Shown: positions 432 through 31,323 of the stretch, piece by piece
Numbering within the stretch: the stretch's first letter is position 1
How the letters are laid out: every line of letters starts with the position of its first letter
Source of the DNA: Arcicella sp.
Lineage (GTDB): Bacteria > Bacteroidota > Bacteroidia > Cytophagales > Spirosomataceae
DNA: 36,677 bases
Direction: 5' to 3'
NCBI GenBank assembly: GCA_025354645.1
Contig: JANXML010000085.1
Coordinates: forward strand, 1 to 36,677
The notes under the pieces: generated by a model
Told to the model about the DNA's origin: nothing
What the model saw: the letters and a program-made list of their open reading frames with translations, nothing else
Databases searched by the model: none
Position numbers and translations under genes: made by a program

Positions 432-1574
432 CTACCACAAACGCTTACTCGCAATTGCGGCACCTTCTGCCATGGCGGCTAATTTGGCGTAAACAATATT
501 TTCATCAACCGCACCAAAACCTGCGAAGGTTGAGAATCCGCAATCCGTTCCTGCAATTACACGCTCTCTGCCCACAATATTTGTGAAAGTTTCAATGCGT
601 TGAGCCACGAGTTCTGGATGTTCAATAAAATTGGAGGTCGAATCTAAAACGCCTGGAATCAAGATTTTATCATCAGGAATTTTTGTATCTCTAAAAACCG
701 TCCACTCGTGGGCGTGACGGGGGTTTGCGGTTTCAAAAAGAAGTCCTTGTGGTTTGGCTCTAAGGGCAATCGGCAACACCATACTCATTGGTGCGTCATG
801 GTGATGTGGTCCTTCGTAATTACCAAAACAAACGTGCATTCTCACTCTGTCCGCAGGAATATTTCTGAGGGCGTGGTTCAAAACTTCGATGTGCTGATTT
901 GCCAAACGAATATAATCTTCGTCGGTATCATTTTTAAACATCATGTGTTTTCCCAAACCAATATCGGGCGAATCTAACTGCAAAACGTATCCAGCCGCCA
1001 CAATTGCCTCATATTCAGGACGCATCGCCTCGGCAAGTGCTTCCAAATATTCGTCTTTTGTTTTGTAATGATTATTGGGTAAAAATAAGGCAATAACCCC
1101 AGGCGAAGCAGCATTCATGAAGGTATCATAAGGTCGATGGGCGGCAATGGCGGCGTTGAAATTTGCCACATCGTCTTCGAGCGGAATCGTACTTTTTACC
1201 TCAATTTTACCAACACAACAAGGTCTTGAATAACTTGGCGTTCCTCCACCTTTGGCTGCACGTTGCATAAATTCTGGATAATCTTCCAAATCGCTCGGTG
1301 GATTGCGTGGACTATCGCCCTCAAAACCTGTGATACGGTCTTTGATATAAGTTGAATAGCTAATTTTACTCATTTCGCCATCACTCACAATATCCACGCC
1401 CGCTTGCACTTGACGAGCAACAACGCTATCAACTGCCGCTTTAATGGTTTCGTTAAAGAGTTGATTATCAACGTCTTCGTTGCGTTCTTTGGCAAAAACC
1501 AAATCGGTAACGGCTTTTGAGCGGGGCAAACTGCCAACGTGTGTAGTTAAAATTCTGTCGGTACTGATTAGCAT
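432..1574 (-). CDS. MetE-like (cobalamin-independent methionine synthase C-terminal family) zinc methyltransferase
   Basis: 380 aa, the length of the stand-alone catalytic half of MetE rather than the ~750-aa enzyme. The zinc ligands of the family are in place: H247 and C249 (MHVCFGNYEG), E281 (LLFETANPR) and C345 (GTDCGFST). The N-terminus RILTTHVGSLPRS is also typical. The family moves alkyl or methyl groups to or from thiols; members include methionine synthases and epoxyalkane:coenzyme M transferase. The gene is the last of the minus-strand catabolic operon, about 160 bp after the short-chain dehydrogenase, so I infer a role on the operon substrate, such as methyl removal or thiol addition, rather than housekeeping methionine synthesis. 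The acceptor thiol and the substrate are unknown. It would act in the cytoplasm. The family call is firm and the role is not. Confidence 0.85.
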   Translation of the reverse strand: MLISTDRILTTHVGSLPRSKAVTDLVFAKERNEDVDNQLFNETIKAAVDSVVARQVQAGVDIVSDGEMSKISYSTYIKDRITGFEGDSPRNPPSDLEDYPEFMQRAAKGGGTPSYSRPCCVGKIEVKSTIPLEDDVANFNAAIAAHRPYDTFMNAASPGVIALFLPNNHYKTKDEYLEALAEAMRPEYEAIVAAGYVLQLDSPDIGLGKHMMFKNDTDEDYIRLANQHIEVLNHALRNIPADRVRMHVCFGNYEGPHHHDAPMSMVLPIALRAKPQGLLFETANPRHAHEWTVFRDTKIPDDKILIPGVLDSTSNFIEHPELVAQRIETFTNIVGRERVIAGTDCGFSTFAGFGAVDENIVYAKLAAMAEGAAIASKRLW

Positions 1575-1732
1575 ATTTTTATTTCTTTAATTGATTTTTA
1601 TAAATAAGTTTTGACGATTATAATTTTTAAAATAGCTAATGTTTTTAACTGCTATCTATGATAAACTAAATTCTGATTATAAAGTAAATGTCACTCAGCC
1701 GATAGCTGACAACCAACTACCGAAAGCCCTTC
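1575..1732. repeat. Intergenic gap with a partial copy of the GCCGATAGCTGA repeat
   Basis: Around 1696-1728 the words CAGCCGATAGCTGACAA and CCGAAAGCC occur. They closely resemble the repeat words in the gap before the aldolase gene (7597-7704: CAGCCGATAGCTGAAAGCC). This looks like a partial copy of a short interspersed intergenic repeat. The rest of the gap is AT-rich without visible genes. Confidence 0.5.
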
Positions 1733-2533
1733 CTACAACAACTCCCTCCCACCATCAACTGGGAAAATACAGCCCGTTGAAAACGTAAAATTTTGAGCAA
1801 TCGCAACAACGGCTTTGGCAACATCTTGGGCTTCTGCAAAACGGTTTAACGGTGTTTTATTGATTTGTTCTTGTAAATAACTTTCAGGAGAACGAGCCGC
1901 ATATTCGCCCATAACCCAGCCTGGCGACAATGAAACTACCCGAATTTGCGGAGCTAATGCCCGACCCAATGAGCGAGTCATTGAATCTATCGCCGCTTTT
2001 GAGGCACAATAAGCTACGTTACTTCCCACGCCAGTTCGTCCTGCGATGGACGAAATATTTATCACAATAGACTGATTACCAAGCAATAACAAAGACTTAA
2101 AAGCCCGAACCATCGCAAAAGAACCCCTAACATTGGTTTGCATGATTTGGTCAAACAGTTCATCGTCCAAAGCATCCAAATCTGCATGAGCAACGGGTTT
2201 GGTTATTCCTGCATTATTAACCAAAATATCTAATCGACCATATTTTTCTTTGACAAATTCAGACATTTCTTTCAGCGATTCACTATCGGTTACGCTGGCT
2301 TTGTACATTGAATGACCTTCTCCTTCAAGGCTATCAAACGTTTTTTGGGCTTTTTCTTGATTGCTCTGGTAATTAACAATTACCTGATAACCAGCACTTG
2401 CCAAAACCCGACAAATTTCTGAACCAATACCTCCGCCTCCACCTGTAACCAAAGCCCCCCGAAGCGTCGGTCGCCCCGCCCCCACAGGGAGAGCTTTTGG
2501 TTCGCTTATATTTTCGGGGATTTCAGATTTCAT
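1733..2533 (-). CDS. Short-chain dehydrogenase/reductase (SDR) with an unusual N-terminal extension
   Basis: 266 aa. The Rossmann cofactor motif is TGGGGGIG (30-37), NNAG lies at 106-109, and the catalytic Ser/Tyr/Lys are S161 or S162, Y175 and K179 (YCASK). The C-terminal PVDGG is typical of classical SDRs. It should oxidise a hydroxyl or reduce a carbonyl with NAD(P) in the cytoplasm. In the operon it lies about 90 bp after the HisD-like dehydrogenase, so the two probably act on neighbouring hydroxyls of one substrate. The first ~26 residues precede the normal SDR start and are encoded by a GC-rich repeat-like stretch (about 2458-2505). No ATG lies between the annotated start and the Rossmann fold, so I kept this start. 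The substrate is unknown. Confidence 0.88.
   Translation of the reverse strand: MKSEIPENISEPKALPVGAGRPTLRGALVTGGGGGIGSEICRVLASAGYQVIVNYQSNQEKAQKTFDSLEGEGHSMYKASVTDSESLKEMSEFVKEKYGRLDILVNNAGITKPVAHADLDALDDELFDQIMQTNVRGSFAMVRAFKSLLLLGNQSIVINISSIAGRTGVGSNVAYCASKAAIDSMTRSLGRALAPQIRVVSLSPGWVMGEYAARSPESYLQEQINKTPLNRFAEAQDVAKAVVAIAQNFTFSTGCIFPVDGGRELL
2458..2505 (-). repeat. GC-rich REP-like sequence inside the start of the SDR gene
   Basis: A stretch rich in C/G runs encodes roughly the residues KALPVGAGRPTLRG of the SDR. Its composition is unlike the surrounding AT-rich DNA and resembles the other G/C-run repeat at 2604-2623 in the same intergenic neighbourhood. I read it as an interspersed REP-like repeat that has been captured into the reading frame. 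Confidence 0.4.
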
Positions 2534-2603
2534 AATTGTATTTTCAATTTTTTTGTTTTACTTAAATCTGGGGTTAATATTACATAACTTATAAGACTAA
2601 ATT

Positions 2604-2623
2604 CCCCCTCTGGGGGTTAGGGG
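2604..2623 (-). terminator. CCCCC-AGA-GGGGG hairpin after the HisD-like gene
   Basis: Right after the HisD-like stop codon the minus strand carries CCCCC AGA GGGGG with further G/C runs around it, followed by AATTTAG. It can fold as a short strong hairpin. G/C-run repeats of this look are common between Bacteroidota genes, so it may be a REP-like repeat rather than a terminator. The operon clearly continues into the SDR. Confidence 0.4.
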
Positions 2624-2624
2624 G

Positions 2625-3920
2625 CTATTTCTTCAACCTTCTAACCCTAATATCTGCTTGCTCTTGATGCCCCGCAAAGTGTTCTAAATTACAAAGTCTT
2701 GAACAATATTCACCAATCATTACGCTGGCTTCGTCCGTCAAAATGCGTTGATACGAATGCGTTTTGATGAATTTTCCAACCCACAAACCACCCGTATAAC
2801 GCCCTGCACGCTTGGTTGGTAAAGTATGATTAGTACCAATTACTTTATCGCCATAACTAACATTGGTTCTTGCACCCAAAAACAAAGCTCCGTAATTGGT
2901 CATATTTTTGAAAAAATAATCATCGTCATCGGTCATTATTTGCACGTGTTCGCTACAAATTCGCTCCGATTCTGCCAACATTTCTTCTTTGGTATCGCAA
3001 AGAATAATTTCGCCATAATCTTGCCAAGCCACACTCGCTATATCTCTGGTATTGAGGCGTTTAAGTACATTTTCAATTTGTGCTGGCAATTCTTCGGCAA
3101 TTTTTTTGCTGTTCGTAATACACACCACGGGCGAATTTGGTCCGTGTTCGGCTTGCCCCAATAAATCAACGGCAACCAATTCACTGTCAACCGTATCATC
3201 ACAAATCACCATCGTTTCCGTTGGTCCTGCCAATAAATCAATGCCCACACGCCCAAATAACTGTCGTTTGGCTTCTGCCACATAAGCATTTCCTGGACCA
3301 ACGAGCATATCTACCGCAATGACGGCATCGTTATCCGCATCAGCTTCTGCCCCAAGTGCCATCAAAGCAACCGCTTGAATTCCACCCAAAACATAAATTT
3401 CGTCTGCACCCGCCAAATGCTGTGCGGCAACGATTGCAGCGGCTGGTTTGCCTTCATACGGTGGAGCACACGCAATTACGTGCTTCACACCCGCCACTTT
3501 TGCCGTCAAAATTCCCATGTGTGCCGATGCCAATAATGGATATTTACCGCCTGGAACATAAGCACCAACCCGATTCATCGGAATGTTTTTATGCCCTAAA
3601 ATAACGCCTGGCAAAGTTTCAACTTCCACATCTCGCAAACCCATCATCTGAATTTGAGCAAAACGCTTGATTTGCGTTTGAGCAAACTGAATATCCTCAA
3701 TATCTTGTGCCGTGAGGCTATCAATGCAAGCCTGAATTTCTGCCTGCGTGAGTTTAAACGAAGTCGGATTCCATTTATCAAACTTGGTGCTGTAATCACG
3801 AATTGCTTCCCAACCACGGGTTTCAATATCAGCCAAAATATTTTCTACCGTAACGATAACCTGTTGGTTTATTTCCTTTCTTTCTTGGGCAGGTTTGCCC
3901 GTTTTGATGTATTGTATCAT
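2625..3920 (-). CDS. Histidinol-dehydrogenase-like NAD-dependent dehydrogenase, probably catabolic
   Basis: 431 aa, full length for the HisD family. Counted from the start, all catalytic positions of E. coli HisD have counterparts: zinc ligands Q256, H259 (GQAEHG), D358 (SYGDK) and H418 (AGHQE), the catalytic pair E324-H325 (CSEHVQI), and E413. The fold signature GTNHTLPT is present. The surroundings contain no other his genes. Instead it sits 6 nt after the symporter in a SusCD-linked catabolic operon. HisD-family enzymes with other substrates are known, for example HpsN, which oxidises the primary alcohol of dihydroxypropanesulfonate to the carboxylate. By analogy this one probably performs a four-electron alcohol-to-acid oxidation of the imported compound. 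Conserved zinc chemistry does not exclude true histidinol activity. The substrate is open. Confidence 0.85.
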
Positions 3921-3926
3921 TATTTT

Positions 3927-5516
3927 TTATTTTCCGATGTAATATAAAAATACGCAAACCACTAAGAAATAAGCGATTAACAGGTAAGACTTATTCTCAA
4001 ATTTTCCAGGAATAACGTAATAACCCTCTTCTGTTTCTGATAATTTGTTATCAATAAAATATTGTTTTTGACCTTTTACCGTAAATTTTTCGATGCCAAC
4101 GGGTTTTTTACCAACCACGAAACTGGCAGCATAGCCAACGGAAGTCGTAACGATAAAACCAAACAAACTATACCACATCCAAAAAATATCCGTAAAAGTA
4201 GCGATCAAAAGAACGACCACGATGCCCAAAATTAGTCCAATATTTACGCCTTGTTCGTTAGTTCGTGAAGTAAAAATTCCCAAAATAAAAACACTAATCG
4301 TTGAACCAACTGTATAAGAACCGTATTTACTGATGGCTTCCAAAAGGCTGAGGTTATTGTTTTGCGACATTAAAACAGCCACCAGAGCCAAAATTCCCCC
4401 AAAAACAAATGTCGAAATTTTGGCAACTCGCATTTTTGTTTCTTCCGATGCAGATTTATTAATAGCTTTTTCGTAAATATCTTTTACATAAACCGTAGCC
4501 ATCGAATTGAGCGAAGCAACCATACTACCAATGCCCGCCGCAAAAATTGCCGCAACGATTAGCCCCAAAAAACCACTCGGAACGTTATCCAAAAATGTTA
4601 CGTAAACGTCGTTTGGTTTCTCGAATGTTTTGCCGTTATAAAACACATAAAGTATCAAACCCAACGCCAAAAACAAAAGCATTTGGGCAACGATCACAAA
4701 ACCCGTCGAGAAAAGCGATAATTTAAGATTTCTCATACTCTTGGCAGCTAACATCCGCTGAACTTGGGCTTGATTACCCCCAAAATAAGAAATGTGCAAA
4801 ATCAATCCGCCAATAATTCCCGCCCAAAGTGTGTTTGGGGTTGTGAAATCCATCGTGAAATTAATGGCTTTTAGTTTACCCGCTTTATGGACAATATCGT
4901 AGGCTTCGGGTAGCGAAACAGGCAATTTTGTAATCGCAATATAAAAGGAAGTAATGATGCCAACCCAAAGAATGGCAATCTGCAAAACATCAATCCAAAT
5001 CACCGCTGTGAGTCCGCCGAGGGTAGTTACGAAGATGGCGAAGGTCATTATTAGAATGGTAATCGTAATATCCAATCCCGTGATGTGCGACAACACAATG
5101 GACGGTGCAAGAATCACAACCCCCATGATTGTCAGGAGTTTAAACAAAAAAGTTGCCGCCAAAAGTGTGCGAGACAACGACCCAAAACGTCCTTCAACGT
5201 ATTCATAAATGGAGACAACGCCACTGTTATAAAAAAACGGCACAAGCGTTCCTCCAATAAACCACATGACAATTGGGATGTTGAGCGTGAGAACAATTGG
5301 GGCTAAACCCGAGGTGTAAGCCCAACCTGGGGCTCCAATAAACGTAACGGCACTTACCTGAGTGGCAATGACCGAACCCGCAATTGCCCACCAAGCAAAC
5401 TCTTTTCCACCCGAAAAATACTCATCGGAAGTGCTGGTTTTTTTATTCAAAAAGATACCAAAGGCGAGCGTTCCCACGAAATAAATTCCCGCAATAATCC
5501 AATCTAATGCTGCCAT
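3927..5516 (-). CDS. Sodium:solute symporter (SSS family)
   Basis: 529 aa and very hydrophobic, with about 13 predicted membrane segments. The start (LDWIIAGIYFVGTLAFGIFL) followed by SGGKEFAWWAIAGSVIAT matches the first helices of the SSS family. Later GGLTAVIWIDVLQ and the loop with NSMATVYVKDIY also fit. It would import a small solute with sodium across the inner membrane. Its start codon overlaps the stop of the four-domain SnoaL-like gene (TGATG), and the HisD-like gene follows after 6 nt, so translation is probably coupled. It should carry the compound that the SusCD pair brings into the periplasm. SSS members transport sugars, carboxylates, amino acids or nucleosides, so the family does not name the substrate. 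Confidence 0.92.
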   Translation of the reverse strand: MAALDWIIAGIYFVGTLAFGIFLNKKTSTSDEYFSGGKEFAWWAIAGSVIATQVSAVTFIGAPGWAYTSGLAPIVLTLNIPIVMWFIGGTLVPFFYNSGVVSIYEYVEGRFGSLSRTLLAATFLFKLLTIMGVVILAPSIVLSHITGLDITITILIMTFAIFVTTLGGLTAVIWIDVLQIAILWVGIITSFYIAITKLPVSLPEAYDIVHKAGKLKAINFTMDFTTPNTLWAGIIGGLILHISYFGGNQAQVQRMLAAKSMRNLKLSLFSTGFVIVAQMLLFLALGLILYVFYNGKTFEKPNDVYVTFLDNVPSGFLGLIVAAIFAAGIGSMVASLNSMATVYVKDIYEKAINKSASEETKMRVAKISTFVFGGILALVAVLMSQNNNLSLLEAISKYGSYTVGSTISVFILGIFTSRTNEQGVNIGLILGIVVVLLIATFTDIFWMWYSLFGFIVTTSVGYAASFVVGKKPVGIEKFTVKGQKQYFIDNKLSETEEGYYVIPGKFENKSYLLIAYFLVVCVFLYYIGK

Positions 5517-7558
5517 CAGTGTGTTTTTTGTTTTAGCATTTCAAAAACGTCAATATCAAGTTGCAAAAGCAAATCAATTTTATCAATAAAGACCCAGTTT
5601 TCTTTGAGTATATTCCCTTCACGAGACCACCAATCCATCACTCGCATCGTAATTTTGCGGTCAGTTTTTGGAATTCCCATCCAATCATCGCCACCGTGAG
5701 TGGCATAAATACTGGGCCAACCCGTTGAACAAGCGTAGAAACCATCACCAAAACGAGCTTTATGATTTCCGCCTTTTCTATCTGGAAATCCTTTCAAAAA
5801 CGGTTTTTGGTGATATTCTTGAAAACCCTTTAATCCACGAGTTGAACCCGTGCCACCTGGACCGTACCACATCATATTAGGATGCCAAAACTTGTGCATT
5901 TCCATTGTTTCGAGGTCTTTTCCATTGAATTTCATCAAGCCTTTAATCATATCTTCGATTAATTGCAACGATTTTTTACCTTCTTCGGGGTTAATTGGAT
6001 AAGTCAAAATACCATCGCCTTTGGCTGGTCCTGGAATGAGAATTTCAACGGCACGATTTGGAAATAAATTAATTCCCGCCTGTTTCATCAAATCAAGCAT
6101 ATCCAAAATGCAGTATGCCGTTTGAATTTTTCCGTCTTTTATTTCGTAAAAAAGCCCGTATCTGATAAACGTAACTTGATTATTTGGTTTAATTCCAAGC
6201 CATTCTTGCTCAAAAGTTCCCGTTAAATTTCCCGTAATACTCACCCAGTCTTTATCTTGAAAATTACCCGCCATCAAAATGTACGGATCTTCTGTAATAT
6301 CAGGAAAAGCGTTAATTAATGGCTTCCAAAATTGGTTAATTATGGCATCAACTCCTTTTAATTCATCAAAAGGTTTTGAGCCATTCCAAGAAATATCGGC
6401 TGAAAAATAAGTGTTTAAAACCGTTTCAAGCCCTTTTTTATTAGCAATTGCTGAATTGGTATCAGCAATAAATTGAGCAACAAAGGCTTTATTTTTTTCG
6501 TGAATTGAAAGCGGTTTGACAGCCGTTTGAGTTTCAGAAATTGGCGTTGCGTGAATCTGACAAAGTACATCGAAAGCATCAAAAACGTCCCATTGGGTTT
6601 TGATTTTACCATCAACCACGATAAAATGGCTAATGCCCAAAATATCAACGGCTTTGCCCGATGGCGTTCCAAAAAAACCGTTTCCACTGTGCAAACCCGT
6701 GAGTCGCCAACGCACGGCAACTTCATCTTGTTGTTCGCCAACATTGGTCATCACTCGCTCAACTTGCAGATTTCCTTGCGGTATTGAAGCATATAAATTG
6801 ATCAAAAAGCTCTGAATCTGAGCCGTACCACGATAATCTTGTTCGCAAATCCCGTGAACCGTTGCCGTTGGCTGATAATAATCTGAAACTTGGTTAAAAT
6901 AACGTCCATTCCAAACGTTTTCAAACAGATTATAAACTAACGTTCCGCTGTCTTTTTCGTTATTTTCTTTTAAAATCGGATTCGTTTGTCCTACTCTGTT
7001 TTCAGCAATATGTGGAGCTGAAAAAAGTGGTTTATTTTTGTATCTCGTTGATTGTTTTGCCAATGCAACTGGGTCATAGCCAAGCTGTTGAATGAGGTGA
7101 AGATTATCTCTTACCAACCACTCTTCTTCAATTTTATTGTTTGAAACAATGCAATCGGCGATGGTTCGGAAGAATGCTTTTTTGCCCGTTGGAAGTCCAA
7201 AAGCGGAGTTGCCTAAATTGGTTGCCGTTGAGCCAATACGATGCGAAGTATAAAACTTTGAGCCTTGTTCTTCCGACCAAATAACGGCTTCCCCCACCAA
7301 TCTGCGGTCTGGGAAACCGTGTAAAGTTTCCATTGTTCCTGCAACCACTGGATTAATGCCATGAATGGTTGTTGCACCCGTAAAAAGCGTAATACCCTCA
7401 GTATAAGTATCATAGATAGCACCAATGCCTCGCTCTTCCCAAATTTCGTGGGTAATTTTAAGGATATAATCTACAATATCGTTGTATTTTGGGTCAAAAC
7501 CAACGAGTTCTTGTTTAGTGCCGTCAAGTTGTTTGGTTGAATAAAAAATCGAATTCAT
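5516..7558 (-). CDS. Protein with four tandem SnoaL/NTF2-like domains
   Basis: 680 aa with no signal peptide. I see four repeats of a SnoaL-like (NTF2 fold) module: roughly 25-180 (HEIWEERGIGAIYDTY...TLHGFPDRR), 205-340 (VWNGRYFNQVSDYYQPTA...GTPSGKAVDILGI), 350-500 (YFSADISWNGSKPFDELKG...NAFPDITEDPY) and 525-675 (HKFWHPNMMWYGPGG...LKGFPDRKGG). The recurring features are a helix pair, a tryptophan/tyrosine-rich strand near 'WNG' or 'WYGPGG', the F-PD motif and a late strand with D/W residues. Single SnoaL-type proteins are 120-150 aa cyclases, isomerases or hydrolases; two-domain forms also occur. Four in one chain is unusual. It is the longest enzyme of the catabolic operon, lies between the aldolase and the symporter, and overlaps the symporter start. 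I infer it processes pathway intermediates; the reaction is unknown. Confidence 0.8.
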   Translation of the reverse strand: MNSIFYSTKQLDGTKQELVGFDPKYNDIVDYILKITHEIWEERGIGAIYDTYTEGITLFTGATTIHGINPVVAGTMETLHGFPDRRLVGEAVIWSEEQGSKFYTSHRIGSTATNLGNSAFGLPTGKKAFFRTIADCIVSNNKIEEEWLVRDNLHLIQQLGYDPVALAKQSTRYKNKPLFSAPHIAENRVGQTNPILKENNEKDSGTLVYNLFENVWNGRYFNQVSDYYQPTATVHGICEQDYRGTAQIQSFLINLYASIPQGNLQVERVMTNVGEQQDEVAVRWRLTGLHSGNGFFGTPSGKAVDILGISHFIVVDGKIKTQWDVFDAFDVLCQIHATPISETQTAVKPLSIHEKNKAFVAQFIADTNSAIANKKGLETVLNTYFSADISWNGSKPFDELKGVDAIINQFWKPLINAFPDITEDPYILMAGNFQDKDWVSITGNLTGTFEQEWLGIKPNNQVTFIRYGLFYEIKDGKIQTAYCILDMLDLMKQAGINLFPNRAVEILIPGPAKGDGILTYPINPEEGKKSLQLIEDMIKGLMKFNGKDLETMEMHKFWHPNMMWYGPGGTGSTRGLKGFQEYHQKPFLKGFPDRKGGNHKARFGDGFYACSTGWPSIYATHGGDDWMGIPKTDRKITMRVMDWWSREGNILKENWVFIDKIDLLLQLDIDVFEMLKQKTH

Positions 7559-7704
7559 TTCAGTTTTATAAAGAAGAAGGACTGTTTAATAGATATCAGC
7601 TGTTGGCTTTCGGCTCTCAGCTTTCGGCTATCAGCTAACATAAAAATTGTATTCAAATTAAGTGTAACACAGCCGACAGCCGATAGCTGAAAGCCAACAG
7701 CCGA
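7559..7704. repeat. Inverted copies of a short interspersed repeat between aldolase and SnoaL genes
   Basis: The left arm at about 7597-7637 (CAGCTGTTGGCTTTCGGC then TCAGCTTTCGGCTATCAGCT) and the right arm at about 7671-7704 (CAGCCGATAGCTGAAAGCC then AACAGCCG) are near-complementary around a ~33-nt AT-rich loop. The RNA would form a long hairpin in the middle of the operon. A partial third copy lies at 1696-1728. The words GCCGATAGCTGA and AAAGCC recur within each arm, as expected for a repeat family that expands by short units. Confidence 0.65.
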
Positions 7705-8466
7705 TTAATTTCTCAATTCTTTGACCAATTGCGTTGCATATTCACTCAAAATCATGCTGTCAGATTTAAGGGTAATGAATCGAAAACCTTGTTGCATGAG
7801 TTGTTTACATTCAGTAACTGACGTTGAAAAAATACCTGGAATAACGTTGTATTTTTGGCAAGTTTCCACGATGGTTTTTAGGGCAGCGTCAATGATTGGT
7901 TGCGTATTTTGGTCGGCGGTTACTTTTCCAGTTAATGATAAAAGTAAATCTGCTGAACCAACAAAAATGGAATCCAAGCCTTTTACCGAGGCAATTTCTT
8001 CAATATTTGCCAAGGCTTCGGCAGTTTCTACCATTGCCATTGTGATAATTTCATCGTTGGCGTGCAATCCATAATCGGCTCCTCCATAAACTCTGGCTCT
8101 GGTTGGACCAAAACTTCGATAACCAAACGGAGGATATTTACAAGCATTTACAAAAGATTCGCACTGAGTTTTATTATCAATCATCGGACAAATCATTCCA
8201 TAAGCACCGCCATCGAGCAACCTCATTATTTGACCTGGTTCGTTCCAATTTGAACGAGCAATTGGAACAGTTTCGGTTGTCGAAATGGCTTGTAACAACT
8301 GAATAGCGGTTTCCATGCTGTGCAAACCGTGTTGCATATCAACCGTTACACTGTCCCAACCAGCGTGAGCCATCAACTCTGCCGACCAGCTACTCGGGAT
8401 GTGCAACCAACCGTTTAAGACCGTTCCGCCCGCTTGCCAAATTTGCTTTATTCTGTTTTTACGCAT
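7705..8466 (-). CDS. HpcH/HpaI-family class II aldolase
   Basis: 253 aa, the usual length. Residues matching HpaI-type pyruvate aldolases are H46 (DMQHG, catalytic base), R71 (ARSNWNE, carboxylate-binding), and metal ligands E147 (MVETAEAL) and D173 (GSADLL). The motif YPPFGYRSFGPTRA is typical. These enzymes cleave 4-hydroxy-2-oxo acids to pyruvate and an aldehyde using a divalent metal; relatives include RhmA and GarL. It overlaps the alpha/beta hydrolase gene by 8 nt, so it is part of the operon, and I infer it is the carbon-carbon cleaving step that yields pyruvate for central metabolism. Which oxo-acid it uses cannot be read. The downstream gap contains a large inverted repeat that may trim or stabilise the mRNA. 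Confidence 0.9.
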   Translation of the reverse strand: MRKNRIKQIWQAGGTVLNGWLHIPSSWSAELMAHAGWDSVTVDMQHGLHSMETAIQLLQAISTTETVPIARSNWNEPGQIMRLLDGGAYGMICPMIDNKTQCESFVNACKYPPFGYRSFGPTRARVYGGADYGLHANDEIITMAMVETAEALANIEEIASVKGLDSIFVGSADLLLSLTGKVTADQNTQPIIDAALKTIVETCQKYNVIPGIFSTSVTECKQLMQQGFRFITLKSDSMILSEYATQLVKELRN

Positions 8467-9175
8467 TGTTATTTGCTGTGTTCAACCACCAATTTCTAAT
8501 CACATCATTCAATATTTCGGGTTGTTCTAATGGCGTTAAATGTCCACATTCTTCAAGAATTTTCAACTCCGAATTAGGAATTAATTGAGCCATTTCTTCG
8601 TGTAAAGTTGGCGGACAAATTCGATCTTCACGACCCGTTATAATTAATGTTGGACAATTTATTTTTGGCAAATCATTTCTACTATCTGGACGACCGAGTT
8701 GGGCTTTCACTTGATTTTTAAAACCTATTTCACCCACATTCAACGCCATATTTAATACTTTTTCTCTAATTTCAATATTTTTTGCATGACTCGGATGCAA
8801 CATACTTTCTTTGGTAAAGTCGGTCGTGATTTTTCTAAAATCACCAGTTTCTACCATTTTTAAATACTTTTTTTGGCTTGCAATGGTCGCTTCACTCGGT
8901 GCTTTATAATTGGTATTCAGCAAAATGAGTTTGCTGATTCTTTGAGGTGCTTGCCTCATCATTTCAAAAGCAATAATTCCTCCGTAAGAAAAACCCATTA
9001 ATGCAAAATTCCCTTCAATTTCTGATAAAATCAAAGTTGCCATTTCAGCCAAATTATCACAACGACTGCAATCAACGGCTTGGCAATTTGCCAAGTCTGA
9101 AATGCCTATCTTTTGATTTTCAAACAAACTGACATCGCACAACGTCCCAGGAATCATCACAAGGGTTTCTTTCAC
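8459..9175 (-). CDS. Alpha/beta-hydrolase fold protein
   Basis: 238 aa. Nucleophile elbow GFSYGG (S63), acid D183 in GREDRICPP and His H211 in ECGHLTPLEQP form the catalytic triad, and the oxyanion stretch is IPGTLCD (8-14). Such enzymes hydrolyse esters, lactones, thioesters or C-C bonds of diketones. It has no signal peptide, so it is cytoplasmic. It overlaps the cupin by 4 nt upstream and the aldolase by 8 nt downstream, so it is tightly coupled within the catabolic operon. Ring-opening of a lactone or cleavage of a 1,3-diketone before the aldolase step would fit. The exact substrate is unknown. Confidence 0.88.
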   Translation of the reverse strand: MKETLVMIPGTLCDVSLFENQKIGISDLANCQAVDCSRCDNLAEMATLILSEIEGNFALMGFSYGGIIAFEMMRQAPQRISKLILLNTNYKAPSEATIASQKKYLKMVETGDFRKITTDFTKESMLHPSHAKNIEIREKVLNMALNVGEIGFKNQVKAQLGRPDSRNDLPKINCPTLIITGREDRICPPTLHEEMAQLIPNSELKILEECGHLTPLEQPEILNDVIRNWWLNTANNNA

Positions 9176-9843
9176 TTTTTTGGAATGGGCGAAAATTCTT
9201 GCAAAGTCATTCCTTCAATTTCTTCAAAAGATTTATTGAGTTTCTCGTGCAAATCTTTATCCACGGCATCGCCATTTTCTGGTTTTACCATTCTTCCTTT
9301 ATCATTTGCCATAAAACCAAAACCAGCCGCTGCATTTTCAACAATCGGAGACCAATATGGGTCTTTGCCTTCATAAACTTTGTGAGATTCTAAGACGGCA
9401 AAGAACCACGCAATTTCATCACTGGCATTTTCAAAACGACGATACACGCCTGGGGGTAATGAAATAACATCCCATTCGTTCAACAAAAAACTACCGTCAC
9501 CTTCGGGTGTAGTGGGGTTTGGGTCATTCGACCAAAAGAATCTCCATGAGCCTTTCAGTGGCACAAACATTTCAATATAATCGTGGGTATGCCAGTGTGG
9601 ACCGTTGCCAGGAGGAGCCCAAGCCATGCCAATCTGAAAATTATGTGGGCTTGAAATTGCCCTTTGGTTTTCGTAAGCGGGGTTTTCAGCAGCCGTGTCG
9701 CCCACGATGGCATAATTCATGCGGTAGTGGTTGGGTAACACACTGTCAATAAACATCAACGGAATTCCATTTTGCTTATATTTATCAAAATAGGCAACTC
9801 CCGCTGCCATTGATTCTTGGGTTTGTTTTGGATGTTCAGCCAT
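9172..9843 (-). CDS. Cupin-domain protein
   Basis: 223 aa. The cupin metal site is clear: GPHWHTHDYIEMFVPLKG gives H83, H85 or H87, and E91, followed by the second cupin motif around SLPPGVYRRFENAS, where the family's last histidine is replaced or shifted (an arginine is seen). The flanking N-terminal ~60 residues and C-terminal ~70 residues are extra. Cupins of this type act as dioxygenases, isomerases, lyases or binding proteins. It is the first cytoplasmic gene after susD, separated from it by a 72-bp gap with a hairpin, and overlaps the alpha/beta hydrolase by 4 nt (ATGA). I infer an enzymatic step on the imported compound; the reaction cannot be named. Confidence 0.8.
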   Translation of the reverse strand: MAEHPKQTQESMAAGVAYFDKYKQNGIPLMFIDSVLPNHYRMNYAIVGDTAAENPAYENQRAISSPHNFQIGMAWAPPGNGPHWHTHDYIEMFVPLKGSWRFFWSNDPNPTTPEGDGSFLLNEWDVISLPPGVYRRFENASDEIAWFFAVLESHKVYEGKDPYWSPIVENAAAGFGFMANDKGRMVKPENGDAVDKDLHEKLNKSFEEIEGMTLQEFSPIPKK

Positions 9844-9867
9844 ATTGAAATGAGGATTATATACAAA

Positions 9868-9894
9868 GACTCACGCATTATTAGTACGTGAGTC
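9868..9894 (-). terminator. Hairpin between susD and the cupin gene, possible attenuator
   Basis: GACTCACG (9868-9875) and CGTGAGTC (9887-9894) form a perfect 8-bp stem with an 11-nt loop. On the minus strand it is followed by TTTGTATAT. It sits between the susD stop and the cupin start, so it could partly end transcription and make the SusCD genes more strongly expressed than the enzymes downstream. Confidence 0.5.
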
Positions 9895-9915
9895 CTTTGA
9901 AATTTTACTTAAATT

Positions 9916-11373
9916 TTAGTTCTGGTACCAATGTTTAGCCGTAATAATATCGCCGCCGATATTACCAATTCCAGCTTTGTAATTATTAGCATTAATTGAC
10001 TGTTCCAAGGTTGGATAAAATACTCTTGTTGGGAATTTGCCACCTGTTTGAATTGATGCGGCAGGTCCGATGTTTAACTTTGGTAAGCCCGTCCTTTTAG
10101 TTTCGCCCCATGATTCCACGGTATTGTTCATGTAAAAAGACATCCATTTTTGATCCATCAAACGCTCCATTGTGTTGTTCCACGCCACGGTTGGTTGTGC
10201 AAAAAATCCAGCAGGAACGGTTATTTTCCAATAGTCAAAATTGGCAGTAATTCCTTTTTCATAAAACGTTTTGGCTTCGCCCGAAATCCAGCCTTTCATG
10301 GCTGCTTCTGCTAAAATGAACTGAACTTCTGAATAACTCATGATGGTATAATCCAATAAACCTTGATCAATAGTAAAACGTTTTGTCAATGAAGACGTAC
10401 GTTGATCAGCATCACCATTTGTTGATTGTGCTATTTCACGAGTTGTACCACTCGTCACGCCAACATGATTAGGATACTTGGCGGCATCGGTTGGTTTTAC
10501 GCAAAAGAAATCGAGGCGTGGATCGTTCGATGGTTGCAACAATGCTACCATTCTTACCGATGGGCTTATTCCCGTTAATGAAGTTGGATTTAGCGCTGAT
10601 ACTACTGATACGTTGGGAGCAACACCTGGAAAATCATAGATTCCAGCTTCGGCATTGTTCGTAATGATTGGATAAGTTACTGGATCAGCAATCATTTTCT
10701 TGATTTCAGCGGCTGCATTGACCTCTGTTCTGTTCGATAAACGTAACAAATAACGCAAACGCAGTGAATTAGCAAGTTTTTTCCATTTAGTTGCATCACC
10801 TTTAAAAAGTACATCACCTCCCAAAGTAAATTTGGCATTCACATCCAAAAGGGTGTTGGCACGGTCTAAATCTTTCAAAATGTTCACGTAAATATCTTGC
10901 TGTTTGCTATATGATGGATTAATGTTACCGTCACCTTTTCCAGCATCCGCATAAGGAGCATCAACCCATAACTCAGTTGCGGTTGCGGCATAATACGAAT
11001 TAAGAATTAACCCTGCGGCAACGTAAGCGTTCAGTTTTTGGCTTTCAGCAACGGCAATCATATCGTTTGAGTTGCGGATTGCGGCATAATTTGTACGCCA
11101 AATTCCTGCAAAATAGTCTTGTCCCGTTGAGAAATCATAGGCATCCAATTGATTATCGTTACGGCGAACCACATATTGCATAATTTGGTCGGTGAGCCAT
11201 GTTTGAAGCAACATATGTGAATTAATCGGTTCAAAAATTACACTTGGCAACAATGAACCCACACTTTTTTGCGTTGGAGCATTATTATTTTTGTTAATTT
11301 TTTCAAAATCATCCGTACAACTAACCAAAAGCGTCAGTACGAGCAGGGGGATATATAATTTATGAAATTTCAT
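9916..11373 (-). CDS. susD-like: SusD-like outer-membrane nutrient-binding lipoprotein (SusD-like_2 type)
   Basis: I chose the ATG at 11373, 21 codons inside the longest frame, because it gives a lipoprotein signal peptide: MKFHKLYIP then LLVLTLLVSC, with the lipidated Cys at 19 followed by TDDF, an acidic patch typical of surface-exposed Bacteroidota lipoproteins. The mature start DFEKINKNNNAPT and later YYAATATELWVDAPYADA match the SusD/RagB branch that pairs with SusC proteins having short N-termini. 485 aa is the normal length. It should sit as a lid on the SusC barrel and capture the substrate. It follows susC after a 151-bp gap with a hairpin and precedes the enzyme genes. The ligand is unknown. 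Confidence 0.92.
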   Translation of the reverse strand: MKFHKLYIPLLVLTLLVSCTDDFEKINKNNNAPTQKSVGSLLPSVIFEPINSHMLLQTWLTDQIMQYVVRRNDNQLDAYDFSTGQDYFAGIWRTNYAAIRNSNDMIAVAESQKLNAYVAAGLILNSYYAATATELWVDAPYADAGKGDGNINPSYSKQQDIYVNILKDLDRANTLLDVNAKFTLGGDVLFKGDATKWKKLANSLRLRYLLRLSNRTEVNAAAEIKKMIADPVTYPIITNNAEAGIYDFPGVAPNVSVVSALNPTSLTGISPSVRMVALLQPSNDPRLDFFCVKPTDAAKYPNHVGVTSGTTREIAQSTNGDADQRTSSLTKRFTIDQGLLDYTIMSYSEVQFILAEAAMKGWISGEAKTFYEKGITANFDYWKITVPAGFFAQPTVAWNNTMERLMDQKWMSFYMNNTVESWGETKRTGLPKLNIGPAASIQTGGKFPTRVFYPTLEQSINANNYKAGIGNIGGDIITAKHWYQN

Positions 11374-11420
11374 CTTTTTTGGTTTTAGTAAGTAGGGGTT
11401 AGATTTTAGTTGTTCGAGAA

Positions 11421-11461
11421 TGGTGCTGTAACACATTGATAATCAATAAATCACAGCACCA
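11421..11461 (-). promoter_or_regulatory. Intergenic hairpin between susC and susD
   Basis: TGGTGCTGT (11421-11429) and ACAGCACCA (11453-11461) pair perfectly, and the 23-nt loop itself contains ATTGAT-A-ATCAAT. No T-run follows. In the susC-susD mRNA this would be a two-tiered stem-loop ahead of susD, likely affecting mRNA processing or relative SusC/SusD output. Confidence 0.5.
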
Positions 11462-11524
11462 GCTCAATATAAAATAGTTTCAAACCCGTACTCGGAATTA
11501 ATAAAATATTGGATACAGGTCGTT

Positions 11525-14500
11525 TTAAAATCCAACCGTTAAATTGAAGCCATAAGTACGGGTATTTGGCAATTGCCCAGCCTCGAAACCTGGAACCAAT
11601 GTACCACCATTAAGTACAAATGATTCTGGATTTAATTGTTGTACAAAACTATCCTTTGTCCAAGTGTATAAATTTCTTCCAAAAATAGAAATGTCAGCAC
11701 GGGCAATTGGCAACTTAGGGAAGTAACTTTTCAAATTAAACCCGATGGAAACCTCACGGACTTTCAAGAATGTTGCATCATAAGTATTTGCACCAATGTT
11801 GGTGGCAAGGAAATAGTTTCGGTAATAGTTTTGTCCTGTACTCGTGATGGTGTTTGGTGAAAATGAGTTATCAGGATTTTGAATCACACCAGCGGGTACG
11901 AAAAGATTTTCACGATTTGGAAGAGATGCTTCAATCACACCAGCACGATACATGATGGCACTTGTATAACTGTAAATTGATCCTCCGTTACGATAATCCA
12001 AGAAAGCACGCAAATTAATGTTCTTGTATGTGAAACCATTTATGATTCCCATGGTCCAGTCTGGATTATAGTTACCAATCAGCGAGATATTTGTATTAAC
12101 CCGTGGCACAACCGTTGTTCCAGATTTGTCATAAATGATTTGACCATCAGGAGAGCGAGCAAAGTCTCTACCATAAATATCACCCATACGACCGCCCACA
12201 CGTGCTTCAACGGTTCCGCCCGATGGACCTTGACCAATAACAAACGTGTTAACACCAGGGGCTAATTCTTCAACCGTACCACGATTGCGGGCATAGTTGA
12301 GTGTTAAATCCCAAGCAAAGTCACGAGTTTTGACTGGTTGGGTTCTCACCAAAAACTCAACACCTTGATTGCGAATTTTTCCTGCATTGATCAACACACT
12401 TGATGCACCAGATGATTGACTGATAGACGCTTGAAGAATTTGATCAATCGTTAAATTATTGTAATAATTGGCTTCAAGAGACAAACGATTTTTGAAAAAC
12501 TTGATTTCTGTTCCAAGTTCAAACGCCGTTGTTCTTTCTGGTCTTAGATTAGTATTTGGCAATAATGGTTGATTGGTAACCGAACTTGGCAAAGTACCAA
12601 AATTGAATACACGCTCCGTTAATAATGGATCAGTATCATTACCCGTTGCGGCTAAACTACTGCGTAATTGAGCAAAGGAGATGAATGATGGCATTTTAAC
12701 CATTTCTGAAATAATAGCACTCACCCCAACCGATGGATAAAAGAATGAATTATTATTCAATGGAAGCGTTGAAGACCAGTCATTACGACCTGTTACGTCT
12801 AAATAAATTTTACTGTCATAATCAAATCTCGCTGACCCATAAACACTGTTAATGCGTTTTCCAGAATCAGTTTGACGTAAAACTGGTCTATCAGCGGCAT
12901 TACCCATATTATATACACCTATTATACCAAGATTATTAGTCTGTTGTGTAATGTTTGAGGATGTTTGATCCATACGGTTTGCACCTGCATCTATTCTGAA
13001 TCCAATTTTAGAGTTCACCTTACCGTCATAACTCAAAAGTATGTCAGTATTTTGTTCTTGAAATAAGATACTTTGCTCACGGTACATTCCTTTGAGAAAG
13101 TTGTTCTGACCAGATGCACGACGTGAACGACGACGGTCACTATAACTATCAATTCCCGTTCTGACCATCAAAGATAGATTATCACTGATTTGGTAGTTTG
13201 CTCTAATATTACCGAATAGGCGGTTTCTGCTAAAAGCATTCAAGTTTTCATTGACAATTAAATATGGATTAGTTCCAAACGATAAATAATAGTTTGGAGT
13301 AACTCCTTCTTGTCCTGGTAACCAATAATCACGGTAATCGTTGTAATCGTAATTACTCATTGACCATGTCATATTGTACATAACACTTTGAGGAGCAAAA
13401 CCTATGGCTGGAACATTATCTGCACCACTTTTAACATAATTTGCAGATACATCAACGGTTAAACGGTCAGTTATTTGAGCGTCTAATTTTAAACCTACGT
13501 TGTATTTTTGGTAATCTGTGTTTGGTACAAAGCCTTTTTTGTTCAAACTACCGAACGATATACGTGCCGATACTTTTTCATTTGACATTGAAAGAGCCAA
13601 ATTGTTATTGATGCTTGTTCCCGTATTGAAGAAATTTTTACGGTTCGCTTTGAACGAATAAGGCGTTGCTTCGGCGTTTGGATTTTGGAGTGTGGTTTGA
13701 GCGACCAATTGTCCCTCATTCAATGCTCCATAATTACCACCCCAATCTCTACGGAAGGCGTTATCAAATCCTCCACCATATTTTGTTTGTTCTTGCCAAA
13801 AATAAGAAACCTCTTCACGTGATCCGCCCGTGGTGAATGTTATGCCAATTCCTTCTTTATCACGACCCGACTTTGTTCTGATGACCAAAGCACCGTTTGC
13901 GGCACGAGTACCATAAAGTGCAGCGGCTTTTGGTCCTTTCAGTACCGATATGTCCAAAATATCATCGGGATTAACGTCCGTCAAACCATTACCATAATCA
14001 GTTGGTAAATCTGCATTATCCAAAGATGCACCACCAACACCATCTAAGTTGTTAGAAACCACTACACCGTCAATTACAATAAGTGGTTGATTACGGTTGA
14101 TGTTAAGCGATGTTTCACCTCTCAATACAATTCTCGAAGATGATACACCAGAACTATTATTTGTTCCAATATTCAAACCTGGAACTCGTCCTGCCAATTG
14201 TTGGGCAATGTCTCCAACTCTGGCTTGATTAACTTCTTTGCTTTCCAATCGCTGAGTTGCGTAGGACAATTGTGATTTTTTGCCTTCGATACCAAGGGCT
14301 GTTACCACAACTTCGCTTAGTTGAGTCACATCAGCTTCCAAAGCAACGTTGATTTTGTTGCTGTTTGTCAAAACAACGGTTTTCTTTGTATAACCAACAA
14401 AACTGAAAGTAATGGATTTTGCGTCGTTGGGTACGGTGAATGTGAATGTACCGTTGGCTTGGGTGGTGGTGCCTTTGTTTGTGCCAGTCAATGAGACGTT

Positions 14501-14617
14501 TACACCAGGGAGGGCTTCTTGGGTTTTGGCATCAACTATGCTTCCAGTGACGTTTCGCTGTGCAATAGCGAATTGACCAAAAAGCATGAGAGCCAATACA
14601 AGTAGTTTTGTTTTCAT
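11525..14617 (-). CDS. susC-like: SusC/RagA-family TonB-linked outer-membrane transporter
   Basis: 1030 aa. Signal peptide MKTKLLVLALMLFGQFAIAQ. Residues 22-95 are a carboxypeptidase-D-like regulatory (CNA-B type) domain with GSIVDAKTQEALPGVNV and FSFVGYTKK. The TonB-box-like LSEVVVTALGIEGKKS follows at about 100-115, then the plug (about 120-250: GRVPGLNIGT, VIDGVVV, ISVLKGPKAAALYGTRAANGAL) and the beta-barrel, ending with the aromatic C-terminus GFNLTVGF needed for barrel assembly. It lacks the STN signalling domain found in the other SusC here, which fits control by the neighbouring ROK regulator instead of a sigma/anti-sigma pair. It imports the operon substrate with TonB energy. The annotated ATG gives an intact signal peptide. 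Confidence 0.95.
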   Translation of the reverse strand: MKTKLLVLALMLFGQFAIAQRNVTGSIVDAKTQEALPGVNVSLTGTNKGTTTQANGTFTFTVPNDAKSITFSFVGYTKKTVVLTNSNKINVALEADVTQLSEVVVTALGIEGKKSQLSYATQRLESKEVNQARVGDIAQQLAGRVPGLNIGTNNSSGVSSSRIVLRGETSLNINRNQPLIVIDGVVVSNNLDGVGGASLDNADLPTDYGNGLTDVNPDDILDISVLKGPKAAALYGTRAANGALVIRTKSGRDKEGIGITFTTGGSREEVSYFWQEQTKYGGGFDNAFRRDWGGNYGALNEGQLVAQTTLQNPNAEATPYSFKANRKNFFNTGTSINNNLALSMSNEKVSARISFGSLNKKGFVPNTDYQKYNVGLKLDAQITDRLTVDVSANYVKSGADNVPAIGFAPQSVMYNMTWSMSNYDYNDYRDYWLPGQEGVTPNYYLSFGTNPYLIVNENLNAFSRNRLFGNIRANYQISDNLSLMVRTGIDSYSDRRRSRRASGQNNFLKGMYREQSILFQEQNTDILLSYDGKVNSKIGFRIDAGANRMDQTSSNITQQTNNLGIIGVYNMGNAADRPVLRQTDSGKRINSVYGSARFDYDSKIYLDVTGRNDWSSTLPLNNNSFFYPSVGVSAIISEMVKMPSFISFAQLRSSLAATGNDTDPLLTERVFNFGTLPSSVTNQPLLPNTNLRPERTTAFELGTEIKFFKNRLSLEANYYNNLTIDQILQASISQSSGASSVLINAGKIRNQGVEFLVRTQPVKTRDFAWDLTLNYARNRGTVEELAPGVNTFVIGQGPSGGTVEARVGGRMGDIYGRDFARSPDGQIIYDKSGTTVVPRVNTNISLIGNYNPDWTMGIINGFTYKNINLRAFLDYRNGGSIYSYTSAIMYRAGVIEASLPNRENLFVPAGVIQNPDNSFSPNTITSTGQNYYRNYFLATNIGANTYDATFLKVREVSIGFNLKSYFPKLPIARADISIFGRNLYTWTKDSFVQQLNPESFVLNGGTLVPGFEAGQLPNTRTYGFNLTVGF

Positions 14618-14845: not shown

Positions 14846-16069
14846 TTAATATTTGGTCAAATCGTAATTTTTAAAAATCATAGCAGCCGCAGCCTTTGAA
14901 CTAAAATAACGACCCAAATTTGATACTTCCACTCGGCAATTGGCGAGAGAGTCAATGAGACTGGTCTTTTTTAAACCCATTTTAAGAGCATCAATGTAAA
15001 AATCTTGAATCATTACTATTTCACCGCTGAGAACAATCAAATCTGGGTTTACTAAATTAACAATATTGCCAAGTGCCTGCCCTAATTTATCAGCTTGGTT
15101 TAGTACGAGTTTGAGAGCAAGGGAATCACCGTTTAACACTGCTTTCAATACATCGTGATATTGATAGGAGTCAGCATTTTCTACCTGAAAATAGTTAGAA
15201 ATTTCACCTTGCGTGAGGGCTTCTTTGAGGTCAGTTTGTAAAGCCCCACCAGAAACTTCGGTTTCTAAGCATCCTTTTTTACCGCACACACAAAGTCTTC
15301 CAAGCGTAGCAAACTGCAAATGTCCAAATTCCCCCGCTTGACCCGTGCCACCCACAATTATCTTTCCGTTTAAGATTACACTCATCCCAATACTGCGGCT
15401 CACTTTCACAATCAACACGTTTTCAGTGCCTTGTGCTTTGCCCATAACTTGCTCGGCTATGCCAATGGCTCGGGTATCCGTATCAACAATGACGGGTATT
15501 TTAAGGACGTTTTCTAAGTATTTTTTAAACGAAATACCCATAAAATTAAAGTATTTTGTTTCGCCCGTGTGGACATTAACCGTACCAGCAAGTCCAACGC
15601 CCAAACCGATAATTTGGTCGTTTTTTAGTTGATTTTTGTCAATTGCAGATTTGATAAAAGAAACAACATCTTGCAGTCCTTCGGGTGTATTTTCTAAGGT
15701 AAATTGGTTGTTGCTTGTTTCAAATAAAACCTCAGAATCTATCCGTACAATGCTTACGTGAATGAATTTAAGTAATATCTCCACGCCAATGGCATAAAAA
15801 CGTTCCTTATTCAAACCGTAAAATTCAGGACGGCGACCGTTTTCGGTTTCCTTTTTTCCTTCTTCAACAAGGTATTTTTTCTCGACAAGCGTTCTGACCA
15901 ATATTGTACAAGTAGGAACGCTTATTTTGACGTATTCAGCAATATCTGGAATCGTGAAAGCGGAGTCAGACTTGGATAAACACCGAACAATATTTTTGAA
16001 TAATTTTTGTTTTCGTTTTTCGGTATGATCATTGGCTTCTTTAAGCGGCGAGTTGAGGATGTTCACCAT
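14846..16069 (-). CDS. ROK-family transcriptional repressor
   Basis: 407 aa, a typical ROK regulator (NagC/XylR/Mlc type). Residues about 20-80 are a winged helix-turn-helix (TIPDIAEYVKISVPTCTILVRTLVEKKYL). The ROK sugar-kinase-like part follows, with GLGVGLAGTV, the DTDTRA stretch at the position of the kinase NDAN motif (the aspartate is kept), GEFGH, and the zinc motif CVCGKKGCLE. Its ligands are usually sugars or sugar phosphates, released from DNA on binding. It is transcribed in the same direction as susC, 228 bp upstream, and two palindromes fill that gap, so it most likely represses the whole catabolic operon. An IS element starts 117 bp upstream of its start codon. Regulator identity is firm; the inducer is unknown, but ROK membership hints at a sugar-like compound. 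Confidence 0.9.
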   Translation of the reverse strand: MVNILNSPLKEANDHTEKRKQKLFKNIVRCLSKSDSAFTIPDIAEYVKISVPTCTILVRTLVEKKYLVEEGKKETENGRRPEFYGLNKERFYAIGVEILLKFIHVSIVRIDSEVLFETSNNQFTLENTPEGLQDVVSFIKSAIDKNQLKNDQIIGLGVGLAGTVNVHTGETKYFNFMGISFKKYLENVLKIPVIVDTDTRAIGIAEQVMGKAQGTENVLIVKVSRSIGMSVILNGKIIVGGTGQAGEFGHLQFATLGRLCVCGKKGCLETEVSGGALQTDLKEALTQGEISNYFQVENADSYQYHDVLKAVLNGDSLALKLVLNQADKLGQALGNIVNLVNPDLIVLSGEIVMIQDFYIDALKMGLKKTSLIDSLANCRVEVSNLGRYFSSKAAAAMIFKNYDLTKY

Positions 16070-17369: not shown

Positions 17370-17524
17370 ATAATTTTTATGACTATACTAAGGGTATTAT
17401 TTTTATTTCTTGTCACAATAATAAGCCAAGGTTAAAAATTGACTTTTCGTAGGCAATTGTAGTCACCTCCATAAAACATTTGTTATTCTTTAAATACAAC
17501 TCAATTTTCTTAAAAATCGCTTAT

Positions 17525-18184: not shown

Positions 18185-18217
18185 ATAGATTAATCTGTCC
18201 AATAAAACGCATTTAAA

Positions 18218-19210: not shown

Positions 19211-19229
19211 TTTAAAACAACCAATTGAT

Positions 19230-22796: not shown

Positions 22797-22808
22797 TCAA
22801 GAAACAAC

Positions 22809-24275: not shown

Positions 24276-24320
24276 CGTTTGTGGTTCAATCACAATTTCC
24301 ACGATGATTAATGTCAAACT

Positions 24321-31320: not shown

Positions 31321-31323
31321 TTT

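Follow-up and report, generated by a model that had tools for sequence, protein, structure and literature searches.

Organisation of the cluster

Contig JANXML010000085.1 of Arcicella sp. (assembly GCA_025354645.1), analysed here over its whole length of 36,677 nucleotides and referred to below as the window, is one of the 392 contigs of a 5.36 Mb genome, and it carries on its minus strand a predicted catabolic operon with an enzyme set that recurs across phyla. First in the direction of reading comes a ROK-family, repressor-like regulator (14846..16069; PF00480 at 167 bits, with the NagC-like model below its cut-off), then a SusC-type TonB-dependent receptor (11525..14617), for which SusC parts were matched in a profile search, and a SusD-like lipoprotein (9916..11436; PF12771, SusD-like_2, 291 bits). 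The enzymes that follow are a cupin (9172..9843), a PcaD-like alpha/beta hydrolase with Ser-Asp-His motifs (8459..9175), an HpcH/HpaI class II aldolase (7705..8466) and a 680-residue protein with four SnoaL domains (5516..7558; four PF07366 stretches). After a sodium/solute symporter (SSS) gene (3927..5516; PF00474, SSF, with TIGR00813 at 247 bits, above its cut-off of 184) come a HisD-like dehydrogenase (2625..3920; PF00815), a short-chain dehydrogenase (SDR; 1733..2533) and, last, a single-barrel, MetE-like zinc thiol methyltransferase (432..1574; PF01717 at 51 bits) that is proposed to be a demethylase.

An earlier note, made from the sequence alone, had placed these ten genes and the ROK regulator here and assigned them to these families, and the open reading frame coordinates and profile matches agree with it on both counts. 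It had also described the catalytic residues as intact, and the expected active-site motifs are indeed present in the cluster enzymes; the functions ascribed to most of them are general knowledge. Its description of the packing as tight holds for three joins that overlap (by 1, 8 and 4 bases) and one with a gap of 6 bases, but not for the remaining six, that to the ROK gene included, which are spaced by 72-228 bases. The ten genes and the ROK gene form one directon, some of its gaps being wider. Counts of promoter-like sequences (61, against 51.6 expected from shuffled sequence, standard deviation 8.1) and of terminator-like sequences (19 against 15.6, standard deviation 3.3) are close to chance.

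Recurrence in other genomes

Related loci were found by scanning a collection of species genomes with six peptide patterns taken from the SnoaL protein alone, an approach that reaches closer relatives only, and gene presence in the 47 loci so fetched was scored by tblastn at 1e-8; several of these loci end at contig ends. The SnoaL protein of the window is a fusion matching two double-domain proteins, SnoN (residues 1-345) and SnoC (346-680), which are separate genes in most of the relatives examined; SnoN is present in 41 of the 47 loci and SnoC in 42. SDR genes were scored in 33 loci and HisD-like genes in 29 (28 of these at an identity of at least 55%, a co-occurrence beyond chance), followed by HpaI in 21, the cupin and the alpha/beta hydrolase in 18 each, and the MetE-like and SSS genes in 14 each. 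SusC, SusD and ROK each occur in a single locus. In L024, from a Cytophagales metagenome-assembled genome (MAG), all 11 genes from ROK to MetE are found in identical order at 67-97% identity, and this is the only one of the 47 loci where SusCD accompanies the gene set. The SusCD linkage put forward in the earlier note is consequently true of the window and of L024 and absent from the other 46 loci; SusC/D is a lineage-specific transporter for the gene set. None of the cluster genes is contained in 22 control loci, a comparison that is weak because these loci are short (73 kb, against 749 kb).

Within a sample of 395 Bacteroidota genomes, the 680-residue SnoaL protein was matched (E ≤ 0.001) in 20, all of the matches other than that in its own genome being weak (best 2.7e-7), and the MetE-like protein, at E 1e-20, in its own genome only (1 of 395). 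A SnoC profile matched 5 of 200 genomes from the order of genome G395, a betaproteobacterial MAG, 13 of 249 from the class of G398 and 2 of 199 from the order of G397, the centre genome being counted each time, and all four further genomes taken from the order of G395 have MetE, HisD, SDR, SnoN, SnoC, cupin and alpha/beta hydrolase genes. SnoaL and HisD-like genes, with varying parts of the eight-enzyme set, occur in Bacteroidota, Pseudomonadota, Chloroflexota, Actinomycetota, Bacillota and Deinococcota, a spread over six phyla that suggests a common nutrient, and haloarchaea carry the SnoaL and MetE-like parts. Conservation of the neighbourhood, which the earlier note had proposed as a check, is thus found, mostly outside Bacteroidota. 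The set is also plasmid-borne, whole or in large part, in Octadecabacter, Ruegeria, Priestia, Deinococcus and Marinovum. As separate observations, a plasmid of the haloarchaeon Halobellus limi (L073, 8596-14989) has five consecutive ester-cyclase genes and then a MetE-like gene (42% identity), and on Marinovum algicola plasmid pMaD9 (L085) the cluster lies a few genes away from a block annotated for breakdown of dimethylsulfoniopropionate, with DmdA.

In a FastTree tree of the HisD-like proteins, that of the window groups with L024, and next with L033, L034, L036 and L037 from Caulobacterales MAGs, with weak support (0.676). This placement, taken together with the rarity of the genes in Bacteroidota, suggests that the cluster was gained horizontally.

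Transport genes elsewhere are sugar-type ATP-binding cassette (ABC) genes, TonB receptors, and major facilitator superfamily or SSS genes. One LacI-type sequence group is represented in 36 of the 53 loci L024-L076, its members in L026, L057 and L066 being confirmed as LacI by Pfam, and the one binding protein examined, from Ruegeria L072, resembles binders of sugars and polyols (5iai, 1eu8, 7nbz, 4rya). The sugar-type ABC genes, the LacI regulators and this likeness all argue for a sugar- or polyol-like substrate.

The enzymes and the reactions they suggest

In the HisD-like dehydrogenase the zinc ligands Q256, H259, D358 and H418 and the catalytic pair E324 and H325 are kept in 33 of 33 relatives; the corresponding motifs in the window are GQAEH, SEH, GDK and GHQ, and they place the protein in the HisD/HpsN superfamily. 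According to those parts of PMC11382572 that bear on the point, HisD and HpsN are told apart by a further motif, which is G-S-A-P-L in HisD and G-R-Y-A/S-H, with a sulfonate-binding His, in HpsN. The window protein has G-K-Y-P-L, matching neither the biosynthetic HisD motif nor that of HpsN, and 33 aligned cluster proteins, that of the window included, conform to G-[K/R/E/Q]-[Y/F]-P-[L/M], with L or M at the last position throughout. By this motif test the cluster enzymes are a third class apart from both HisD and HpsN. It follows that TIGR00069, the cut-off of which is exceeded (414 bits against 244) although the motif differs, would on its own misname the protein. A second, canonical HisD is present elsewhere in the same genome (552 bits, C61, motif G-T-A-P-L, 30.6% identical to the window protein), and the copy in the window is therefore not needed for histidine. 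Identity between the window protein and its 32 relatives is 96.5% for L024, 59.5-67.1% for 28 of them and 38.1-47.0% for three outliers (L051, a second copy in L066, and L074). Near the cluster in two Rhodobacterales loci, L066 (11174-12541) and L122 (3680), there is a further HisD-like gene that is less closely related (44-46%).

It was also proposed in the earlier note that the substrate might be sulfonated, and a pathway for a compound like 2,3-dihydroxypropane-1-sulfonate (DHPS) or sulfoquinovose, with an HpsN-type dehydrogenase, has to be considered, given that the best PDB matches of the HisD-like protein are the DHPS dehydrogenases 8v35 and 8wwe. The likeness to HpsN, the DHPS 3-dehydrogenase of Cupriavidus pinatubonensis (treated in parts of PMC11382572), extends to the zinc ligands, the catalytic Glu-His pair and the Lys that follows the zinc Asp (Lys353 equivalent), which is kept in 33 of 33 cluster proteins. 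However, where HpsN has the sulfonate-binding His126, all 33 have L or M, and the gene company is different. In the Arcicella genome no Xsc match reaches its cut-off (CuyA was not searched for), and the sole PF04295 match lies in a 553-residue frame, which we take to be of the altronate-dehydratase type. With the HisD-like motif lacking the sulfonate-binding His and no Xsc above cut-off, a sulfonate pathway is disfavoured and appears very improbable.

In both HpsN and HisD a single enzyme takes an alcohol to an acid, according to the same portions of PMC11382572. Halobacillus loci L027-L029, and L169, have in place of a HisD-like gene, which is not found in the stretch, genes for an iron-dependent alcohol dehydrogenase and an aldehyde dehydrogenase between those for SnoN and the cupin, an apparent swap that hints at an alcohol-to-acid step.

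Zinc is also indicated for the MetE-like protein, His-x-Cys, Glu and Cys being the zinc ligands of MetE-like zinc methyltransferases; the window protein shows this pattern (motifs HVCF, ETAN and TDCGF), and H247, C249, E281 and C345 are kept in 17 of 17 relatives. It shares PF01717 and the ligand pattern with MetE and core-MetE methyltransferases. However, at 380 residues and 30.5 bits against the 930 of TIGR01371 it does not qualify as a methionine synthase, and it differs from those enzymes also in falling under every curated cut-off and in its place within a catabolic cluster. Corrinoid O-demethylase systems, which consist of a URO-D-type methyltransferase, a corrinoid protein and RACo, offer a parallel in proposed role: they are built on an unrelated protein family and are not in the window, but URO-D family genes lie beside the same SnoaL genes in five loci (L031, L051, L052, L120 and L182). 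A B12-binding protein gene accompanies that for URO-D in L031, L051, L052 and L120, RACo is present in L051, L052 and L120, and MTHFR-family genes occur in L051, L054, L056, L060 and L120. For L031 and L051, both with URO-D, the genome gives no MetE-like match. This apparent swap between MetE-like and corrinoid methyltransferases hints at a demethylation step, URO-D family membership being by itself no proof of a methyltransferase. On a plasmid of Sphingobium sp. RAC03 (L086, 8995-10508), a MetE-like gene (49%) and one NTF2-like gene were noticed near MTHFR and a gene with a glycine-cleavage-T barrel, and this pair may have a role in other demethylation settings.

The SnoaL protein matches the model of its superfamily above the cut-off (PF07366 at 164 bits against 28.4). 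The SnoC half has a predicted structure of high confidence (predicted local distance difference test score, pLDDT, 93.5) with the SnoaL fold, and its first domain superposes on 2gey with Z 17.7 and a root-mean-square deviation of 2.0 over 133 aligned residues, and on 3kkg with Z 17.7 and 3.1 over 143. D141 and D297 (numbered within the SnoC half) are invariant in 32 sequences. The modelled fold would thus be shared with SnoaL polyketide cyclases and epoxide hydrolases (2gey, 3kkg, MonBI), from which the present proteins differ in forming double-domain pairs and in their catabolic setting; a shared SnoaL fold does not reveal the reaction.

For the aldolase (motifs ARSN, ETAEA and GSADL; PDB relatives 7o5i and 6r62), superfamily PF03328 is assigned at 110 bits, while the equivalog models for HpaI (158 bits against 369), GarL (125 against 407) and RhmA (106 against 441) stay below their cut-offs. 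At the operon end in Rhodobacterales loci L062, L063, L071, L072, L082 and L085 there is an RraA-like gene, and in the first four of these HpaI was not found; this apparent swap hints at aldol cleavage. Identification of RraA as a CHA aldolase was considered and set aside, the PDB and NCBIfam matches being weak (27 bits for L072, cut-off 304). The alpha/beta hydrolase (motifs GFSYG, GRED and GHL) likewise falls short of PcaD enol-lactonase (81 bits against 256). SMP-30 is present and the alpha/beta hydrolase is not in L045, L057, L061 and L070, again an apparent swap, hinting at a hydrolysis step. A creatininase-family gene, 61-66% identical to the L051 copy, is common to L031, L051, L120 and L182, and the best model for the L120 protein is IolN, 3-dehydro-scyllo-inosose hydrolase (172 bits against a cut-off of 245; the creatininase model gives 85 bits), a clue to ring opening. 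An IolN-like relative in four related clusters recalls the hydrolysis of an inositol diketone in the IolN pathway, which differs in that the window uses an alpha/beta hydrolase and that L120 does not reach the IolN cut-off. The SDR has the motifs TGGGGGIG (of the form TGxxxGIG) and YCASK (YxxxK). Although the Pfam match of the cupin is weak (20 bits against a cut-off of 27.2), its first cupin motif, HTHDYIEMFVPLKG, is canonical, with the HxH-x3-E metal motif; Arg replaces His in the second motif, and H85, H87, E91 and R135 are invariant in a 17-row alignment.

A possibility that we rate as fairly unlikely is oxidation of an O-methyl hexose or glycoside, in which the SDR would form a lactone, the hydrolase or SMP-30 would open it, HisD would make an aldarate, SnoaL would dehydrate this and HpaI would cut the product as GarL does. 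A CUT1-type binding protein, the LacI and ROK regulators and the SMP-30 and fuconolactonase-like neighbours all suit such a scheme, as do the genes that adjoin the cluster in L126 (10445-12698: aldo/keto reductase, FucU-family and fuconolactonase-like) and L059 (15704-19229: UxuA and UxaC, for hexuronate). It would leave the IolN-like hydrolase unexplained, however, and inspection by eye, without a family search, revealed neither a sugar-acid dehydratase of known family among the recurrent parts nor glycoside hydrolases among the recurrent groups. Frames like UxuA and UxaC of L059, as judged by eye, also lie beside L064. A presumed C-N hydrolase beside Ruegeria L072 is no longer counted, the amidohydrolase gene there being fuconolactonase-like (109 bits, cut-off 400).

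Proposed pathway and substrate

On balance, though without great conviction, we favour the reading that this is a catabolic operon, probably spread by horizontal transfer, that breaks down a small sugar- or cyclitol-like compound methylated on oxygen or, less likely, on N or S. The compound would enter by way of SusCD and the SSS symporter and be sensed by ROK; the MetE-like enzyme would move its methyl group into the one-carbon pool, and a ketone or lactone would arise as the SDR oxidises an alcohol, either secondary or on a ring. The HisD-like enzyme might then convert a CH2OH beside a carbinol to COOH in a single four-electron step, the SnoaL pair could carry out acid-base chemistry on the ring (elimination, hydration, or C-N or C-O cleavage), the alpha/beta hydrolase would open a lactone or cyclic diketone, and the HpaI aldolase would yield pyruvate together with an aldehyde or keto acid. 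Every enzyme except the cupin would find a place in these steps. The gene set, its recurrence and the motifs are observed directly, and from them we infer every reaction, the order of the reactions and the substrate class; the step order, SnoaL role and pyruvate product given in the earlier note are inferences of the same kind. Its broader claim is supported in so far as it concerns an unusual catabolic set with a pyruvate-type aldolase, one that recurs across phyla and would act on a small, sugar-like and probably methylated molecule. A search of open-licence literature (subscription papers lying outside its scope) brought up no paper joining SnoaL or ester cyclase with histidinol dehydrogenase, or the latter with cobalamin-independent methionine synthase and cupin, and we know of no named pathway for the set.

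As we read it, the gene set calls for four features: a methyl group on the substrate, in many of the organisms that carry the set; a CH2OH with a carbinol beside it; a cyclic diketone or lactone; and an intermediate that is a 4-hydroxy-2-oxo acid. Mycosporines, which serve cyanobacteria, algae and fungi as UV sunscreens, contain the arrangement HOCH2-C(OH)-CH2-C=O. On paper, mycosporines and gadusols answer all four demands, O-methyl sugars doing nearly as well. The special case of catabolism of a mycosporine, or of a mycosporine-like amino acid (gadusol), can be put forward tentatively, as a doubtful but specific candidate. SnoaL would strip the amino-acid arms, the MetE-like or a corrinoid enzyme would take the ring O-methyl, HisD would oxidise the hydroxymethyl group at the tertiary carbinol, opening of the cyclic 1,3-diketone would fall to the hydrolase (IolN-like elsewhere), and from the resulting 4-hydroxy-2-oxo acid the aldolase would release pyruvate. 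In its favour, the arrangement just given resembles that of the zinc-bound substrate in HisD-type enzymes, where zinc binds both the carbinol or amine group of the substrate and its imidazole or sulfonate group (parts of PMC11382572), and shinorine and porphyra-334 are released by Microcystis cultures (parts of PMC12405062). IolN-like and URO-D genes occur together in L031, L051, L120 and L182, a serine dehydratase gene directly follows SnoC in L039 and L043, and other neighbours are two M19 dipeptidases in L031, a CN-hydrolase in Deinococcus L081 and an amidase in L074; the weak CHA aldolase match of the L072 RraA may be added. However, each kind of amino-acid-related neighbour is isolated, with no direct link to mycosporines: the M19 dipeptidases occur only in L031 and its overlapping stretch, and serine dehydratase was dropped as a general partner, being confined to L039 and L043/G395 and not in the stretches of four further genomes (L132-L139). 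Moreover, the SMP-30, FucI-like, fuconolactonase-like and malate-racemase-like neighbours point equally to sugars and sugar acids, and no mycosporine degradation pathway was among the titles seen of matching open-licence papers.

Several findings weigh against the favoured reading of an operon for an O-methylated compound. No curated cut-off is reached by the HpaI, PcaD, IolN or MetE models; the SDRs share between 25 and 81% of residues with that of the window and may not be orthologous; and the predicted structure of the cupin is of low quality (pLDDT 62.9) and matches generic cupins only. As regards demethylation, 33 loci have no MetE-like gene in the stretch, and of 26 of their genomes that were searched, 13 have one elsewhere (the best match in each being 57-68% identical) and 13 yield no match, Halobacillus (3), Exilibacterium, Acidaminobacter, Roseateles and Saccharospirillum being among the latter. 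In those 13, the fetched stretch has URO-D in L031 and L051 only and MTHFR in L060, and demethylation is therefore not shown to be general. A corrinoid system as a clean replacement for MetE, which fits L031 and L051 but no other genome, had to be given up, G398 and G414 holding MetE-like and URO-D genes together; the URO-D protein of L052 also lies far under the MtaA/CmuA cut-offs (45 bits against 235; these are the nearest NCBIfam models).

Elsewhere in the window, a frame at 16806-17342 (+) with a DDE transposase match lies between its two SusCD blocks, the other of which (17480-27203, +), on the opposite strand, includes a sigma factor, a FecR anti-sigma factor and a GH106 alpha-L-rhamnosidase. 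At 28399-33334 a DnaE-type polymerase (973 residues), a Y-family polymerase and a helix-turn-helix/S24 regulator adjoin one another, a block that we liken to the DnaE2-ImuB mutagenesis cassette.

Public annotation labels the pieces of this cluster as histidine biosynthesis, methionine synthase and polyketide cyclase, which is misleading. If the reading favoured here is true, HisD-like dehydrogenases would gain a third class, SnoaL proteins would have a part in catabolism, and a zinc demethylase that works without cobalamin would be a possibility.

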